From Bacillota bacterium (GTDB lineage Bacteria; Bacillota; Sulfobacillia; JABLXB01): 64,000 bases of DNA. Positions 12,946 to 23,199 of the stretch are shown piece after piece. Each line of letters begins with the position of its first letter. Position 1 is the first letter of the stretch. The notes below the pieces were generated by a model that searched no databases, was not told the DNA's origin, and saw nothing but the letters and a program-made list of their open reading frames with translations. The stretch covers positions 186,001 to 250,000 of the forward strand of contig JABLXB010000003.1 in the NCBI GenBank assembly GCA_013178305.1, given 5' to 3'. Made by a program: the position numbers and the translations under genes.

Positions 12946-14225
12946 GCGCGCCGTGTGTCCGGGGGGCAGCGGCCACGCCGTCTCGGGAGGCCGCGGTGTC
13001 GCAGAAGGCAGGGTCGCGGCGGGCTGTTAGTATTGCTTCCATCGTCGGCGCGCGGCCGCAGTTCGTGAAGGCGGCGATGGTCTCGCGTGCGCTGCGGGCG
13101 CTGCGGGACGCCGGCGTCCAGGAGACGCTCATCCACACCGGCCAGCACTACGATGACAACATGTCGAAGGTCTTCTTCGACGACCTCGAAATGCCCGAGC
13201 CGGCCGTCAGCCTGGATATAGGCTCGGGCGGGCACGGCGCGCAAACCGGCCGGATGCTCGAGGCGCTGGAGAGATACCTCATCGACATAAAGCCGGACTG
13301 GGTGGTCGTATACGGTGACACGAACTCCACCCTCGCGGGCGCTCTCGCGGCCGCCAAGATCCACCTCCCGGTGGCCCACGTCGAGGCGGGGCTTCGCTCG
13401 TTCAACCGCGGGATGCCCGAGGAAATCAACAGGGTCGTCGCCGACCACCTGTCCGACCTTCTGTTCGTCCCGACGGATGCCGGCGTGGCAAACCTCCAGC
13501 GCGAGGGCATCCCCGCGGACCGTGTTCACCTCGTTGGGGACGTTATGTACGACGCGGCGCTCTACTACGGCGACAGGGCCGAACGCCGGAGCGACGTTTT
13601 GCGGCGGCTGGACCTTTCGTCGCGCGGGTACGTGCTGGCCACAGTGCACAGGGCCGAGAATACCGACGACCCTGTCGCCCTGCGCAGCATCTTCGAGGGG
13701 CTCGCGCTTGCCGGTCGGGAGATCCCTGTCGTCATGCCGCTTCACCCTCGCACGAGGACCCGCCTCGCGGAGCACGGGCTGCTCGACCGGTATGCGGGGG
13801 CCGTACGTCTGGCCGAGCCGTGCGCGGGGGCCGTCCGCCTGACCGAGCCACATGCGGGGGCCGCCCCTCTGCCCAGGCCGCACGCCGGGGCTGTGCACCT
13901 CACCGACCCCGTCGGCTACCTCGATATGCTGATGCTCGAGAAGCATGCGCGTCTCATCGCCACAGACTCAGGCGGGGTGCAGAAGGAGGCCTTCTTCTAT
14001 TCAGTCCCCTGTGTGACGCTGCGCGGCGAGACGGAGTGGACGGAGCTCGTGGAATCGGAGTGGAACCGGCTGGTGCCGCCCCGCTCAGCGAGCGAGGTGT
14101 CCCAGGGCATCATCGAGTCCCTCGACCGGCGCGGCACGCCAGTGAAACCCTACGGCTTGGGCGATGCCTCGGAGAGGATCGCCAGGGTCCTTGTATCGAA
14201 TCGAGAACCACAAGACGGCAATTGA
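12942..14225 (+). CDS. wecB: UDP-N-acetylglucosamine 2-epimerase (non-hydrolysing)
   Basis: Interconverts UDP-GlcNAc and UDP-ManNAc for surface glycan synthesis. Family motifs: SIVGARPQFVKAAMVSRAL, HTGQHYDDNMS, VYGDTNST, HVEAGLRSF, PEEINR, ATVHRAEN, PLHPRT, DSGGVQKEAFF and RGETEWTEL. The N-terminal 30 residues before the family start are unusual; GTG at 12996 is an alternative start, while the ATG overlaps the previous stop. Between PLHPRT and PVGYLDML the protein carries four tandem copies of a ten-residue unit (AGAVRLTEPH-like), where homologues have one. Assignment is firm, but the inserted repeats may affect the loop near the active site. Confidence 0.93.
   Translation: MSAPCVRGAAATPSREAAVSQKAGSRRAVSIASIVGARPQFVKAAMVSRALRALRDAGVQETLIHTGQHYDDNMSKVFFDDLEMPEPAVSLDIGSGGHGAQTGRMLEALERYLIDIKPDWVVVYGDTNSTLAGALAAAKIHLPVAHVEAGLRSFNRGMPEEINRVVADHLSDLLFVPTDAGVANLQREGIPADRVHLVGDVMYDAALYYGDRAERRSDVLRRLDLSSRGYVLATVHRAENTDDPVALRSIFEGLALAGREIPVVMPLHPRTRTRLAEHGLLDRYAGAVRLAEPCAGAVRLTEPHAGAAPLPRPHAGAVHLTDPVGYLDMLMLEKHARLIATDSGGVQKEAFFYSVPCVTLRGETEWTELVESEWNRLVPPRSASEVSQGIIESLDRRGTPVKPYGLGDASERIARVLVSNREPQDGN
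13794..13913 (+). repeat. Four tandem 30-bp units inside wecB
   Basis: In-frame repeats translated as AGAVRLAEPC, AGAVRLTEPH, AGAAPLPRPH and AGAVHLTDPV. The last copy joins the family-conserved GYLDML, so the first three look like extra duplicated copies. The units have diverged by several bases each, so the expansion is not recent. Confidence 0.9.
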
Positions 14226-14804: not shown

Positions 14805-14824
14805 GGCAGCAGGTGCTTGGTGCG

Positions 14825-15068
14825 GCGAAATCCGACGGACTACTCGCGCAAGCGTGGGCGCTGCCGACAGACCTGCGCCGGAAGCGTTCCCTGCGCCGTC
14901 AGGTCGACCCCGACCGTAGTCATTGCCTACAAACGGACGCCGCAGGTGTGGCTTCTGCCCACGGACAGACGCCAGCAGTGCGGCTTCTGCCGACAGACCA
15001 GACGCCGGCAGTGCGGCTTCTGCCGACAGACCAGACGCGATGGTGTTGTTTTCACCCGCAGGTTGCTC
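14825..15068 (+). repeat. Tandem 32-33-nt repeat array (copy A)
   Basis: The gap between the VanZ gene and the nucleoside hydrolase is made of about eight degenerate units of 32-33 nt. The core of each is GCCGACAGACC-like, followed by AGACGCC and TGCGGCTTCT. Two central units (about 14972-15036) are almost identical, showing recent duplication. The units abut with no spacers, so this is not a CRISPR array. Two related arrays lie at 16.1 and 17.3 kb. A frame stays open through the array because 33 is a multiple of three, but I see no sign that it is translated. Confidence 0.8.
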
Positions 15069-15095
15069 ACGGTCAATCCACAGGGGGGCGAGGCT

Positions 15096-16016
15096 GTGAA
15101 GTGGATCATCGATACGGACCCCGGAATTGATGATGCGGCGGCGATAATCGCGTCGGTCCGGTCGGGGCTGGATGTCACCGGCATCTCAGTGGTGTACGGG
15201 AATGCTTCGCTGGAGCACACGCTGAAGAATGCCTTGCGACTTATAGAATTGCTGGATGTCCGAATTCCGGTTTACCCCGGTGTTGACCGCCCGCTGCTCG
15301 GGCAACTGCATCGTGCGGCTGTCGCACACGGGGAAGACGGTTTCGGCGACAACTTCTTGCCTGCCCCAAATCGTCGCGAGGAGGGAGGTCACGCGATCGA
15401 TTTCTTGCTGGAGAGCGCCCGGCGTTTTGCGGGGAACCTGAGCCTGTTGGTCATAGGTCCTTTGACGAATGTGGCCCTGGCCATAGCCCGGGATCGCTGC
15501 TTCTGTGATTCCGTCAGCCAAATCGTAATCATGGGTGGGACATCTGGTGCTCGGGGCAATGCCACAATGGTCTCGGAATTCAATATCTACGCAGACCCGG
15601 AAGCTGCGGCGATCGTTTTGGGTTCGGGGATCCCCATAACCATGGTCCCCCTCGAGACTGCGCGTAAGGTGCTATTGGGTGTTGAGTTCCTCGAAATGCT
15701 CGAGCGGTCGAAGGCCCCGCTGGCTCAATTCTTCTCGAGCATTTGTGGGCCTGTGGTCAGGCGGGTGGAGCGACAACGGGGCGCTCGCGGCCTGGTATTG
15801 TGCGACCTGGTTGCCGCAGCCCTGGCCATCGAGCCTGGACTCGCGAGGTCCGCAGTTCAATCCTATGTGGCTGTGGAAACAGGTGGTTCGGTATCGAGGG
15901 GACTGACGGCTGTCGATTACTCGGGAATATCGGGCTGTAAACCTAACGCCACTGTATGCCTTGACGTTGACGCTGCTCGGGTAGGCGACATCTTCGCCCA
16001 AGCCCTGACTACCTGA
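15096..16016 (+). CDS. Inosine-uridine preferring nucleoside hydrolase
   Basis: Hydrolyses the N-glycosidic bond of ribonucleosides to free base and ribose. The metal-binding N-terminal motif DTDPGIDDAAA at residues 5-15 is complete, and GPLTNVALA near 129, IVIMGG near 148 and EFNIYADPEAA near 163 follow in family order. The catalytic His seen in many members (DxxH near residue 240) is not obvious, so specificity is open. The start is the GTG at 15096, just after GGGGGGCGAGG; a longer frame upstream runs through repeats and is rejected. No partner genes for nucleoside salvage are adjacent; it sits alone between repeat arrays. Confidence 0.88.
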   Translation: MKWIIDTDPGIDDAAAIIASVRSGLDVTGISVVYGNASLEHTLKNALRLIELLDVRIPVYPGVDRPLLGQLHRAAVAHGEDGFGDNFLPAPNRREEGGHAIDFLLESARRFAGNLSLLVIGPLTNVALAIARDRCFCDSVSQIVIMGGTSGARGNATMVSEFNIYADPEAAAIVLGSGIPITMVPLETARKVLLGVEFLEMLERSKAPLAQFFSSICGPVVRRVERQRGARGLVLCDLVAAALAIEPGLARSAVQSYVAVETGGSVSRGLTAVDYSGISGCKPNATVCLDVDAARVGDIFAQALTT

Positions 16017-16048
16017 CTCCTGGCTCCTGGCTCCTGATTCCTGATTCC
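16011..16048 (+). repeat. Heptanucleotide tandem repeat
   Basis: Five units of seven bases (ACCTGAC, TCCTGGC twice, TCCTGAT twice) begin at the nucleoside hydrolase stop codon. This is a simple slippage-prone tract of unknown function. Confidence 0.85.
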
Positions 16049-16103: not shown

Positions 16104-16298
16104 GCCGCAGTTGTGTGGTCTACGCCGACGGATCAACCCCAAGTTCGTGGCCACTGCCGGCAGGCAAATCGCAAGCGTGCTGTCCGCCGACGGGTGAATT
16201 CCGACATTGCGGTTTCCGCCGGCAGATCCGCTGCGATAGTGTTGCCTTCCCCCGCAGGTTGCCACCGAACACGTGGCACGTGACCACGTGTCGCCGGA
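16104..16298 (+). repeat. Dispersed repeat, copy B (five 32-33-nt units)
   Basis: About 195 bp that aligns with 17316-17507 in the same orientation at roughly three quarters identity, judged by eye. Internally it is five units of 32-33 nt built around GCCGACGGATCAA- and GCCGGCAGGCAA-like cores, related to array A. The rest of the 16017-16580 gap holds a 10-nt ATGG-initial repeat (16372, 16382, 16392, 16402) in an AT-rich stretch that may contain the promoter of the next gene; nothing else is recognisable. Confidence 0.75.
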
Positions 16299-16580
16299 GT
16301 CGGATCCCGGCCCCCCGCGCGGTCGCGCCCTTCGACCAATGGTTCATCAGGCCGACAGGCCACGCGCCGCCATGGAAATACATGGCAATATATGGTAGAC
16401 TATGGTTAGGGCGTCAGCCGGAGCGTGTCCAAACGCCGACGTCGCAGGTACAGCACAGTCGCACGGCCCTGCTCGAAAGCCAGACCACGTGTGACAGCAG
16501 CAAGCAGCCACGCGGTTGCTTGGCGCGCCTTCAACACAATTAGTCCTGGAAAGCTGTGATGAGGAGGTTTTGTCAGCCGG

Positions 16581-17297
16581 TTGAGGTATCGAGCGTTCTT
16601 GCCTCCAGATATGCTGAATTCGAGAAAGTTGCGGCCTGTAGCGAAGACCCTGTATTTCGTCGCGCAGGCCCTGCAGCCGAGGTCGATCAGTGAGCTCGCA
16701 AGACACGCCGGGGTCGACCGAAGCACAGCATCCGAAGCCTGCGCCGAGCTCGCCCGGGCCGGTTGGATGAAAATCGTGAAATCGAGGAGGGAACACGCCC
16801 CCGTCGCGGTCATTCCCGGGGCATTGCAGGCTGAGCGCGCGGAGAGTCTCCGCAAAATCCTCGCGATGGTGCGTCACAAGGGCGAGTTCCTCATGAAGTG
16901 CTGGCTTGACCTCATGGTTCCCAGTGACGACTATCTCGACAACGCAAGGCCGGAATTCCTGTTGAACCCCGTCTCGGGTGAACCCCTCGAATTCGACCGC
17001 TATTACCTCCTCGGAGTGGCCTTCGAATTCAACGGCCCCCAACACTACGGCCCCACAGTCGTGTATCCCGATGAACGCGCGTTCAGGGAGGTGCGGACGA
17101 GAGACCTGTTGAAACGGGGGTTAAGCCAGGAGAAGGGCATAGTGCTGGTCACCATCACTGCGCAAGACCTTTCGTTGGAGGAAATGCGCAGGAAAATCCC
17201 CGACCGGCTGCCCCGTGGCTTCGTTGACACGGGTTCGCCGTACGTGAGGACCCTGGAGCGCGCGTCGGCCGAATACAGGGAAAAAGCGAGCGGCTAG
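16581..17297 (+). CDS. Winged-helix plus EDxHD/Vsr-like nuclease-domain protein
   Basis: A 238-residue protein with two parts. Residues 18-72 read as a winged helix (RSISELARHAGVDRSTASEACAEL). Residues 130-205 carry a restriction-endonuclease-like motif set: Glu137-x-Asp139, GVAFEFNGPQHY with Glu149 and His155, then RDLLKRGLSQEKGIVLV with Asp175 and Lys178. That pattern occurs in Vsr-like nuclease domains fused to DNA-binding modules. Function is unknown; DNA cleavage or repair is inferred. The TTG start has AGGAGG 13 bases upstream; ATG at 16611 is an alternative. It lies alone between two direct copies of a 195-bp repeat, which suggests movement as a unit. Confidence 0.65.
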   Translation: MRYRAFLPPDMLNSRKLRPVAKTLYFVAQALQPRSISELARHAGVDRSTASEACAELARAGWMKIVKSRREHAPVAVIPGALQAERAESLRKILAMVRHKGEFLMKCWLDLMVPSDDYLDNARPEFLLNPVSGEPLEFDRYYLLGVAFEFNGPQHYGPTVVYPDERAFREVRTRDLLKRGLSQEKGIVLVTITAQDLSLEEMRRKIPDRLPRGFVDTGSPYVRTLERASAEYREKASG

Positions 17298-17315
17298 AAC
17301 CCATTACAGTTCGTC

Positions 17316-17507
17316 CCTGCAGGTGTGTGGCCCAGGCCGACGGATCAACCCCAAATCCGTGGCCAATGCCAGCAGGTGAATCGCAAGCGTGGCGGCCGCC
17401 GACGGATATACATCGAGAATGCGGCTTCTACCCACAAATCGGCCGTGATTGTGTTGCCATCGTCTGCAAGTTGCCTCCGAATACGTCGCATTTGACCACG
17501 CGTCCCC
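17316..17507 (+). repeat. Dispersed repeat, copy C
   Basis: Same family and orientation as 16104-16298, again five 32-33-nt units, starting GCAGGTGTGTGG and ending near CCACGCGTCCCCGG. The remaining gap to 17653 shows no gene or clear promoter. Confidence 0.75.
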
Positions 17508-17653
17508 GGCTTCTTCTCATCATAAACTCCCCGTCGATTCCCCCCGATATTTGCTGTAGAGGCTTCACGCCTGCCCTGCGCCGGCGATAGCTGCGGCAAT
17601 GAAGCGACAGCCGGGCTGCCCGGCGCGCGCGGCTCATGATGGGGGGAACCAGT

Positions 17654-20902: not shown

Positions 20903-21307
20903 TCATGGTTGCGTCTTGGTATACGGCTGCAACGTCAGCAAGCCCTCGATGATGTTGAAGTGCCTTGCGTTTCTGGTGACGAGGACCGCTTTCAATTCCA
21001 GGCAGGTACTGGCGATGATTGCATCCACCGGGGTCAAGCCCTTGGCCCTGTAGTTCCTCAATAGTTGTCCGGCTCGCCGGGAGATGGACGATGAAACAGG
21101 GATGGAGGAGAAACGGCTCAGCAGGCTTTCCAGCAGTTCCTTTTCGCCTTTTGCGGGCAGAGCGCCGGCCATGAGTTCCATTTCCGTTAGCACGGATATC
21201 TGACCCGAGTATTCACCCGTAAAAACCCTGCGCAGGAAATCGCCGGCGGGTTGGTAGCCGCGCAGGTGATCGACGAGAATATCGGTATCGATGAGGATGC
21301 TAGTCAT
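20903..21307 (-). CDS. vapC: PIN-domain toxin VapC
   Basis: A 134-residue PIN-domain RNase with the standard acidic set: Asp in ILIDTDILVDHLRG at residues 4-17, Glu in LTEMELMAG near 42, Asp in LTPVDAIIASTC near 93, and VTRNARHF near 114. It is the toxin of a complete pair, since an AbrB-type antitoxin precedes it. The ATG at 21307 overlaps the antitoxin stop by eight bases, giving translational coupling. RNA cleavage is expected; the target is not known. Confidence 0.88.
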   Translation of the reverse strand: MTSILIDTDILVDHLRGYQPAGDFLRRVFTGEYSGQISVLTEMELMAGALPAKGEKELLESLLSRFSSIPVSSSISRRAGQLLRNYRAKGLTPVDAIIASTCLELKAVLVTRNARHFNIIEGLLTLQPYTKTQP

Positions 21308-21584
21308 CCAGGATTCTCTCCAGGCGCCCGGAATCTGACTGGCGCAACTCCGCAGTGAACTGGGCGCTAATGTCATCCCGGTTTTTCCACAAACCAGCTG
21401 TTGCGGTGATTATGTCTTCATCTGTCATCCGGTCCCTGACTGCAGGTTTTCTCCCAACCTCGAGTACGATGCTGTTTTCCCCCACTGCTTTCACCTGCAG
21501 CACATCCCCTGCCCCAATTCTCAGTTGGCGCCGGACGTCTGATGGCAAGGTAATCTGTCCTTTAGAGGATATACGCGTTTGCAC
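21300..21584 (-). CDS. vapB: AbrB/MazE-type antitoxin VapB
   Basis: A 94-residue antitoxin. The N-terminal swapped-hairpin DNA-binding domain is clear: MQTRISSKGQITLPSDVRR, then LRIGAGDVLQVK and SIVLEVG. The C-terminal half, with DEDIITATAGLWKNRDD, should wrap the toxin. The GTG start at 21584 lies behind TAAAGGAGGGGG. A 15-bp palindrome overlapping that site is the likely autoregulatory operator. It is followed directly by vapC and preceded, on the same strand, by the sigma-54 activator gene. Confidence 0.88.
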   Translation of the reverse strand: MQTRISSKGQITLPSDVRRQLRIGAGDVLQVKAVGENSIVLEVGRKPAVRDRMTDEDIITATAGLWKNRDDISAQFTAELRQSDSGRLERILDD

Positions 21585-21595
21585 GAGGCCCCCTC

Positions 21596-21610
21596 CTTTA
21601 CTTAGTAAAG
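21596..21610 (-). promoter_or_regulatory. Palindromic operator upstream of vapB
   Basis: CTTTACTTAGTAAAG is a perfect 7+1+7 palindrome that overlaps the TAAAGGAGG ribosome site of vapB. Toxin-antitoxin pairs usually repress their own promoter through such a site. Confidence 0.6.
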
Positions 21611-21663
21611 CATAGCATGGGCAGTAAAGGACCGTCAAGAACTGGCCGCAAGGGCGTCCTTGC

Positions 21664-23199
21664 CTACGGACGCCCGTCCCCCCGTCTCCGGTGCCCCGAG
21701 ATCCGCCTGTACACGGTGCTCTGGCTGAGCCCGGTCGCCCGCGCCACCTTGTAGGTGCTGCCGAGGGTTTCGTACAGGCGCAGGAGCTCCGCTGCGTCCG
21801 GCGCGGGACGGGGCGGGGCCACGGCCGCGGCTGGCCCCACGCCGGCAACTGTGGCGTCGGAAGGCAACTGGGGCTGCATCGCCGTGCCGGGCGCCTCCGC
21901 CGGTGAGGCTTGCGGGTAACCGCGCGTAACGGAGCACCTGACGCGTTCTGGAAGATCACCCCAGTCTATTTGCCTCGATTCGCAGGTCACGAACAGGTAT
22001 TCCAGGAGATGCTGCAACTCGCGTATGTTGCCTGGCCAGTCGTACTGCTTGAGCGCCTCCATCGCCGCCGGAGCGATCTCCTTCGTCCCCCTGTATTTCC
22101 GGCTGAACGCCCTGGTGAAGTGCGAGACGAGCCCGGGGATCTCTTCCTTCCGGCTCCTGAGCGGTGGCATGCTCAGCGCGATCACGTTGAGGCGGTAGTT
22201 CAGGTCCGCGCGGAATCGCCCCGCCTTCACCAGCGCGTCGAGGTCCTGGTTGGTGGCGGCGATGATCCGGAAGTCGGCGTGGCTCGACTTGGTCCCGCCC
22301 ACCGGTATGAACGTCCTGTCCTCGATTACCTGCAGTAGCTTGGCCTGGATCGAGAGCGGGAGATCCCCGACCTCGTCGAGGAAGACGGTGCCGCCATTAG
22401 CGAGCTCCAGCAGCCCTGGCTTGCCCTGCCTGTTGGCGCCCGTGAAGGCGCCCGGCTTGTAGCCGAACAGCTCCGATTCGAGGATCTCCTCGGGTAGAGC
22501 CGGGCAGCTCAGCTTCAGGAATGGGCCGCCTCGCCTCGGGCTCTTGCGGTGAACGAAATGGGCCAGGACGTCCTTGCCCGTCCCCGATTCGCCGGTGATG
22601 AGTATGTTCGCGTCGAAAGCCGCGGCGCGGGTGGCCAGCCTGAGCACGTCCCGCATGACCTTCCCGGTACACACGGGTTCGATGTGGCCTTCCTTGCGGT
22701 CGTCGCTGGGGCGCCCGGTGGTGCCGCGCGGGTCCGCCGCCCCGCCGGCGGCCTGCGCCGCTCCGCCGGCCGCCTGCGCCGCCCCGCCGGCGGCCTGCGC
22801 CGCCTGAACGCTCTCGTAGGTCTCCCTCATGTACTCCAGCGAGGTGACATCCCTCGAGTTCTCGACGACGTACTGGAGGTTCCCGTGCGCATCGAACACG
22901 GGGGTCCCCGTGATGAGCATCACCCTGCCGGTTCTAATCCGCTGCGTCAGGGTGATGCTCTTCTTTTCGGCGATGACCAGCGGGGCAACGGCGGGGTGGA
23001 AGTATCCCTCGAGCTCCAGGTCGCGCACGTTCCGGCCGATCAGGTTCTCGAGCTTTTCCCCGTACAGCTCCTCGCACGCCGGGTTAACATAGAGGGTGTT
23101 GCCCTCGGCGTCCGTCACCCAGATTTCGTCGCACGAATGATCGCAAACCACCTTGTAGAACTGATCGGGCAGGCCTACGGCCACGATGAACGCCTCCAT
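21664..23199 (-). CDS. Sigma-54-dependent transcriptional activator with PAS domain
   Basis: A 511-residue enhancer-binding protein. Residues 10-120 form a PAS sensor (DEIWVTDAEGNTLYVNPACEELYG). Residues 175-400 form the AAA+ domain, with Walker A GESGTGKD at 203-210, the sigma-54 contact loop GAFTGA at 250-255, and GGTVFLDEVGDLPL as Walker B. The C-terminus has a Fis-type helix-turn-helix (YKVARATGLSQSTVYRRI, about 480-497). A linker at 133-155 is three copies of AQAAGGA. It is divergent from a seven-gene operon that has a -24/-12 promoter, so this operon is its likely target. The ligand is unknown; pantothenate, pantoate or beta-alanine are candidates by context. Confidence 0.93.
   Translation of the reverse strand: MEAFIVAVGLPDQFYKVVCDHSCDEIWVTDAEGNTLYVNPACEELYGEKLENLIGRNVRDLELEGYFHPAVAPLVIAEKKSITLTQRIRTGRVMLITGTPVFDAHGNLQYVVENSRDVTSLEYMRETYESVQAAQAAGGAAQAAGGAAQAAGGAADPRGTTGRPSDDRKEGHIEPVCTGKVMRDVLRLATRAAAFDANILITGESGTGKDVLAHFVHRKSPRRGGPFLKLSCPALPEEILESELFGYKPGAFTGANRQGKPGLLELANGGTVFLDEVGDLPLSIQAKLLQVIEDRTFIPVGGTKSSHADFRIIAATNQDLDALVKAGRFRADLNYRLNVIALSMPPLRSRKEEIPGLVSHFTRAFSRKYRGTKEIAPAAMEALKQYDWPGNIRELQHLLEYLFVTCESRQIDWGDLPERVRCSVTRGYPQASPAEAPGTAMQPQLPSDATVAGVGPAAAVAPPRPAPDAAELLRLYETLGSTYKVARATGLSQSTVYRRISGHRRRGDGRP
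22738..22803 (-). repeat. Three tandem 21-bp units in the activator gene
   Basis: GC-rich units encode AQAAGGA three times in the linker between the PAS and AAA+ domains. The length of this linker could change by slippage without a frameshift. Confidence 0.9.

Follow-up and report, generated by a model that had tools for sequence, protein, structure and literature searches.

A winged-helix nuclease-like gene family linked to phased palindrome arrays in a lineage of Bacillota: a candidate nuclease-plus-binding-site element

Results

The locus and its repeats

The window, a stretch of 64,000 nucleotides from the genome of a Bacillota bacterium, contains a gene for a predicted nuclease that lies between two arrays of short repeats (B upstream, C downstream), and a nucleoside-hydrolase gene separates array B from a third array, A, located further upstream (Table 1). 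The initial annotation had described B and C as copies in the same orientation on the two sides of the gene, and this was confirmed: they are on the same strand and 77% identical over 191 nt, and since the E value is about 1e-40 the likeness is not a matter of chance. The units start at positions 16114, 16146, 16176, 16208, and 16240 in array B and at 17326, 17358, 17388, 17420, and 17452 in array C; they recur every 30–33 bp, and each carries an imperfect palindrome with the motif TGTGGCcTccGCCgaCAG, which array A shares. The arrays of the window are degenerate. In a manual count, B and C matched at 71/90 motif positions and 61/80 spacer positions, i.e. both diverge about equally, and the strongest evidence for our reading comes from the relatives of the locus. 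There were no inverted repeats of at least 40 nt in the window.

Table 1. Positions of the arrays, the box, the gene, and its domains in the window
Feature	Position	Strand	Basis
Array A, 267-bp array element, best units TGCGGCTTCTGCCGACAG	14811..15077	+	
Array B, 191-bp block of 5–6 degenerate palindromic units of ~32 bp, upstream of the nuclease gene	16107..16297	+	
Box ATGGTAGACTATGG, extended -10-like (TGGTAnnnT), between array B and the nuclease gene	16392..16405	+	Pattern count
wHTH-nuclease gene, 238 aa, TTG start, stop included	16581..17297	+	ORF list, family alignment, AF2 model
Winged-helix domain, residues 19–76, recognition helix about 47–59	16635..16808	+	Pfam MarR_2/HTH_IclR, DSSP of AF2 model, Foldseek
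PD-(D/E)XK, Vsr/EDxHD-like nuclease domain (D139, E149, N151, Q154, H155, D175, K178)	16869..17195	+	Conservation, PHROG, AF2, weak Foldseek
Array C, copy of B in the same orientation, downstream of the nuclease gene	17319..17509	+	

When the upstream regions of the family genes were compared with control windows, the strict box pattern WTGGTAnnnTATGG was found in 14/76 and 0/231, respectively. The box is common to loci whose palindromes differ.

Several other repeats were seen in the window. A 7-bp, CCTGACT-like repeat (16004–16048) lies between the stop codon of the nucleoside-hydrolase gene and array B, a 30/60-bp tandem repeat (13792–13906) is located inside a UDP-GlcNAc 2-epimerase-like coding sequence, and a 21-bp repeat (22723–22804) encodes AAGG units in a PAS/sigma-54 regulator. 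An AbrB/VapB-like ORF (21300–21959) has a 50-aa stretch that is 96% identical to a fragment about 200–590 bp upstream of a paralogous nuclease gene (L034), 32 kb away.

The encoded protein

The N-terminal part of the protein is a MarR/IclR-like winged helix–turn–helix (wHTH) domain (Pfam HTH_IclR, score at the cut-off), with E137xD139, E149, H155, and D175xxK178 in the C-terminal part. The winged helix and Vsr-like motifs proposed in the initial annotation thus agree with the residues at these positions, with Pfam, with the conservation in 49 aligned sequences, and with the AlphaFold2 model. In the alignment, F148, E149, G152, Q154, H155, K178, and L197 were invariant, while D139 and D175 were more than 90% conserved. 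The model was confident (pLDDT 92.9) and displayed a wHTH and a PD-(D/E)XK-type domain; the nuclease domain modelled alone reached a pLDDT of 91.0.

With Foldseek, the wHTH part matched MarR/IclR proteins and, lower in the list, the centromere protein AspA. The matches of the nuclease domain were TnsA, Vsr, and XisH, all insignificant (Vsr with a weak TM of 0.41), and all of which we take to belong to the PD-(D/E)XK superfamily. Searches of PDB by sequence and by Foldseek gave wHTH matches or insignificant nuclease matches and nothing else, and DUF2726 matched the nuclease domain weakly. The closest annotated relatives of the nuclease were the phage homing endonucleases phrog_9084 and phrog_559 (PHROG), in line with the endonuclease predicted earlier; the EDxHD/Vsr-type homing endonucleases include the I-Bth0305I group. 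Phage tblastn matches to the protein covered residues 100–221. PADLOC returned no defence match apart from generic wHTH ones, and no match to an HUH/catalytic-tyrosine (Y1) family was found. The catalytic residues of this predicted nuclease are conserved.

Family and distribution

Full-length relatives were found in 11/41 genomes searched, the window's genome included, often several per genome and in one case seven. Nearly all of the named loci belonged to Candidatus Fermentithermobacillaceae, Limnochordales, Symbiobacteriaceae, Thermaerobacter-labelled genomes, and unclassified Bacillota MAGs. The family is lineage-restricted and multi-copy, occurring in Fermentithermobacillia, Limnochordia, Symbiobacterium, and related MAGs, which are heat-loving bacteria. 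Outside this lineage the nuclease domain alone is held in common: phages, plasmids, and viral contigs yielded nuclease-domain relatives and no full-length family member. A related half-site, GCGGC, occurs at L071, whose protein is the closest to that of the window (62%).

Most family loci lie in differing gene contexts, and few pairs are orthologous in place. For the same-context orthologue pairs the dN/dS was 0.11–0.27, with the lowest values in the nuclease domain, which indicates purifying selection on these genes, strongest on that domain. Most of the genomes are MAGs, and in up to 24/84 loci the contig ends within 700 bp of the gene, so that some arrays are hidden. A second family copy in CP062796 (L124, CP062796:1993124-2001806) has stop codons in the matched stretch and no clear array, and is probably a decayed gene.

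Repeats are enriched beside the family genes

As exact palindrome counts were too noisy in GC-rich DNA, they were replaced by periodic and refined scans. Among the closer relatives, a tandem-repeat score of at least 160 was reached in 20/73 flanks and in 3/162 control windows, which were located over 1.6 kb from the gene (p 7e-9). The loci with such a score made up 19 of the 37 close ones, many close loci being only modest; with a looser cut-off, 32/37 had at least one repeat-bearing flank. The periods in the flanks piled up at 31–32 bp and its multiples, whereas those in the controls did not. The gene family and the flanking repeats are thus statistically linked, the flanks being strongly enriched in arrays. 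No further gene family recurs beside the arrays. The observations that the initial annotation had named as speaking against it, orthologues without flanking repeats and repeats spread without the gene, do occur in part: many distant family members showed no clear array in their flanks, some members having no detectable repeats, and some arrays have no gene.

Locus-specific palindromes in helical register

At the clearest loci, each array is built on its own palindrome of 16–23 bp: TGGTCCCCnGGGGACCA at L083 (25 sites), CAGTGCcAACcngGTTgGCACTG at L094 and L092 (12 and 22 sites, respectively, every 42 bp), gGTGGTcGAtaaTCgACCACc at L091, and TnTGCgGAAnanTTCcGCAnA at L074. The palindromes are spaced by 31–32, 41–42, 51–52, 63, 72, or 84 bp. 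These are whole helical turns, which places the palindromes on one face of the duplex. The non-modal spacings were phase-coherent at 10.5–10.6 bp (R 0.59, 44 distances, 18 arrays), with a nominal p of 2e-7 that is optimistic because unit blocks are duplicated and spacings within an array are non-independent, inflating the statistic. Both the phasing test and the Mantel test described below were devised after the data had been seen.

The arm mismatches in 17 arrays comprised 100 G-T and 115 A-C, and in most of these arrays the number of two-sided arm changes was near that expected under independence. The arms therefore drift independently and without G-U bias, indicating that the palindromes are sites in duplex DNA rather than RNA hairpins. 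The palindrome cores of orthologous arrays were 83/77/93% identical, as against 49/54/74% for the spacers, and the 490-bp array of L085/L091 has the same length in both with three gap columns. The retained cores and diverged spacers of the orthologous arrays point to selection on the palindromes as sites.

Loci with more similar palindromes also tended to have more similar recognition helices (r 0.43, p 0.0002 in an exploratory Mantel test on 17 arrays). When close pairs were removed, the correlation with the recognition helix remained (r 0.29, p 0.004), and the nuclease domain and the whole wHTH were both non-significant. This result is evidence, although not proof, for recognition of the palindrome by the wHTH encoded at the same locus.

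Dispersed arrays and decaying loci

Orphan arrays were found in three genomes. In the window's own genome, array D (G000:C2:166925-167156) is 78% and array E (G000:C2:44201-44386) 72% identical to array A; BLAST with B alone missed them, whereas array A as the query found them. They lie at two unlinked sites and neither adjoins a family gene, and since arrays without the gene are present there, the arrays have spread. The A/D/E element was not found in the same-family genomes searched. In CP062796, an orphan array lies 26 kb from the gene-bearing array, to which it is 87% identical. G023 has seven further intergenic arrays (L152–L158) with a hairpin-like unit of ~75 bp as beside L051, and the stretches read at L152–L158 contained no family gene. 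The family of ~75-bp units (L051, L152–L158) is far bigger than the gene family. The initial annotation had suggested that the gene might excise or spread by recombination or homing. As regards spread, the dispersal of the repeat to other sites stands.

The loss of an element could be traced at a single locus, that of L095, with the comparison anchored on a neighbour gene of L095. The gene and the array are kept in L098/L169, the N-terminal half of the gene is lost and a ragged array kept in L170, and in L168 a 76-bp gene tail remains and the array is gone. With a truncated gene or gene tail beside an array that decays in place, these losses represent joint decay by erosion and not precise excision, and no clean empty allele that would mark a precise insertion was found at this locus. 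The empty site with a single repeat copy that the initial annotation had proposed to look for was not found in relatives; the downstream neighbour of the window gene and the L092 neighbour are absent from relatives, which made the empty-site searches there uninformative. Neither active transposition nor a clean empty site was seen, and an unsystematic inspection revealed no target-site duplication. In 72 loci, the upstream and downstream arrays were alike in five, always in direct orientation (among them L079, L086, L133, and L076, the last over just 32 bp), and inverted pairs were absent.

Discussion

The explanation that we favour, at a probability of about one half for the model as a whole, is that of an element family consisting of a wHTH-PD-(D/E)XK nuclease gene and at least one array of short palindromes. 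Most likely, the wHTH encoded by the gene binds these palindromes, probably as a dimer; the protein would then cover its own locus in a cooperative manner and so hold down its own expression. On weaker grounds, we think it most likely that the conserved nuclease occasionally nicks or cuts DNA at or close to the palindromes, after which repair would lengthen or shorten the arrays or copy them to other locations. Such homing-like copying would leave orphan arrays behind, although these might serve other proteins. Put at its strongest, with the wHTH-Vsr-like protein itself creating, expanding, and dispersing helically phased arrays of its own palindromic sites in bacterial chromosomes, as a selfish or domesticated element of a kind separate from IS, REP/RAYT, CRISPR, and TIGR, the idea is tentative.

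A possible, if rather less than probable, alternative is that the wHTH-nuclease binds the phased palindromes for self-repression or local chromosome organisation, as an operator or titration array, the nuclease acting elsewhere, e.g. on invading DNA, and the arrays growing and moving by replication slippage and recombination. The phasing, the site selection, and the recognition-helix correlation require no cleavage of the arrays, and the vertical inheritance and purifying selection seen in orthologous pairs are also in keeping with such a role. In the iteron and centromere systems (Rep, TubR, AspA), the gene of a wHTH protein lies beside clusters of regularly spaced sites. The present loci resemble them in this arrangement, and AspA was among the wHTH matches; they differ in that the nuclease domain is conserved and the genes are chromosomal and multi-copy. 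Against this alternative, the orphan arrays at unlinked sites in three genomes and the patchy multi-copy distribution suggest active spread, and PADLOC gave no defence match apart from generic wHTH ones. We consider it improbable that the gene is a unit which loops out through, or homes with, direct repeats such as B and C: the window pair and its few counterparts would suit this, but such pairs were seen in only five loci, and the excision by recombination between B and C suggested earlier is not supported by the L095-locus losses, which left no clean junction.

Still less credible is a relationship to the REP/RAYT systems (TnpA-REP; PMC2817692, PMC8266576), where the palindromes would be single-strand hairpins mobilised by the protein. 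The likeness is that a nuclease-type gene is flanked by palindromes with extra copies in the genome. However, the enzyme there is an HUH tyrosine enzyme and here a Vsr/PD-(D/E)XK-type protein with a wHTH, and the sites here are tandem, phased, locus-specific duplex sites in few copies. The pairs are direct and the arms independent, rather than two inverted REPs with compensating arms. The least probable reading, which we rejected, is that of an RNA-level array, with CRISPR- or TIGR-like guides or a processed hairpin RNA and the protein as the effector. Like the TIGR-Tas systems, which include palindromic stem-loop variants (PMC12045711), the present loci have locus-specific tandem arrays with variable spacers upstream or downstream of a gene, and their palindromes are often TG...CA, the tigRNA repeats being UG...CCA. 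Against this, there was no G-U excess and no arm covariation, the spacing moves by helical steps, some palindromes have no space for a loop, Rfam gave no match, and Pfam at the thresholds used gave no Nop domain in the window protein or in the nuclease domains of the 49 aligned sequences. The degenerate repeats and the variable-length spacers, duplicated in blocks, also fail the CRISPR criteria.

The element further resembles the EDxHD/Vsr-type homing endonucleases, an outgroup described in PMC12350094, in the sequence and motif pattern of the nuclease domain. It differs from them in its wHTH targeting domain, its intergenic position in bacterial chromosomes, and its palindromic arrays, and no intron, intein, or phage context was seen around the family genes. 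As regards the terminal inverted repeats expected of an insertion sequence, no inverted repeats of at least 40 nt were seen in the window, and none of the upstream and downstream arrays at the 72 loci formed an inverted pair. In the libraries and the open-access literature searched (Vsr/EDxHD, REP/RAYT, phased palindromes, Symbiobacterium repeats, TIGR), we found no described system in which a nuclease gene is accompanied by duplex palindromes in helical register. Because the sequence features do not pass the tests that define the known kinds of system we considered, we set the loci apart as a new category, and they suggest an undescribed nuclease-plus-binding-site element with predicted sites.

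Each locus represents a predicted pair of a protein and its site, some 20 in all, which opens the idea to direct tests on the purified proteins. Should the nuclease drive the growth of the arrays, the family would represent a new route by which bacterial genomes gain phased arrays of binding sites. If the protein only binds, the arrays would still offer a natural collection of co-evolved wHTH specificities.
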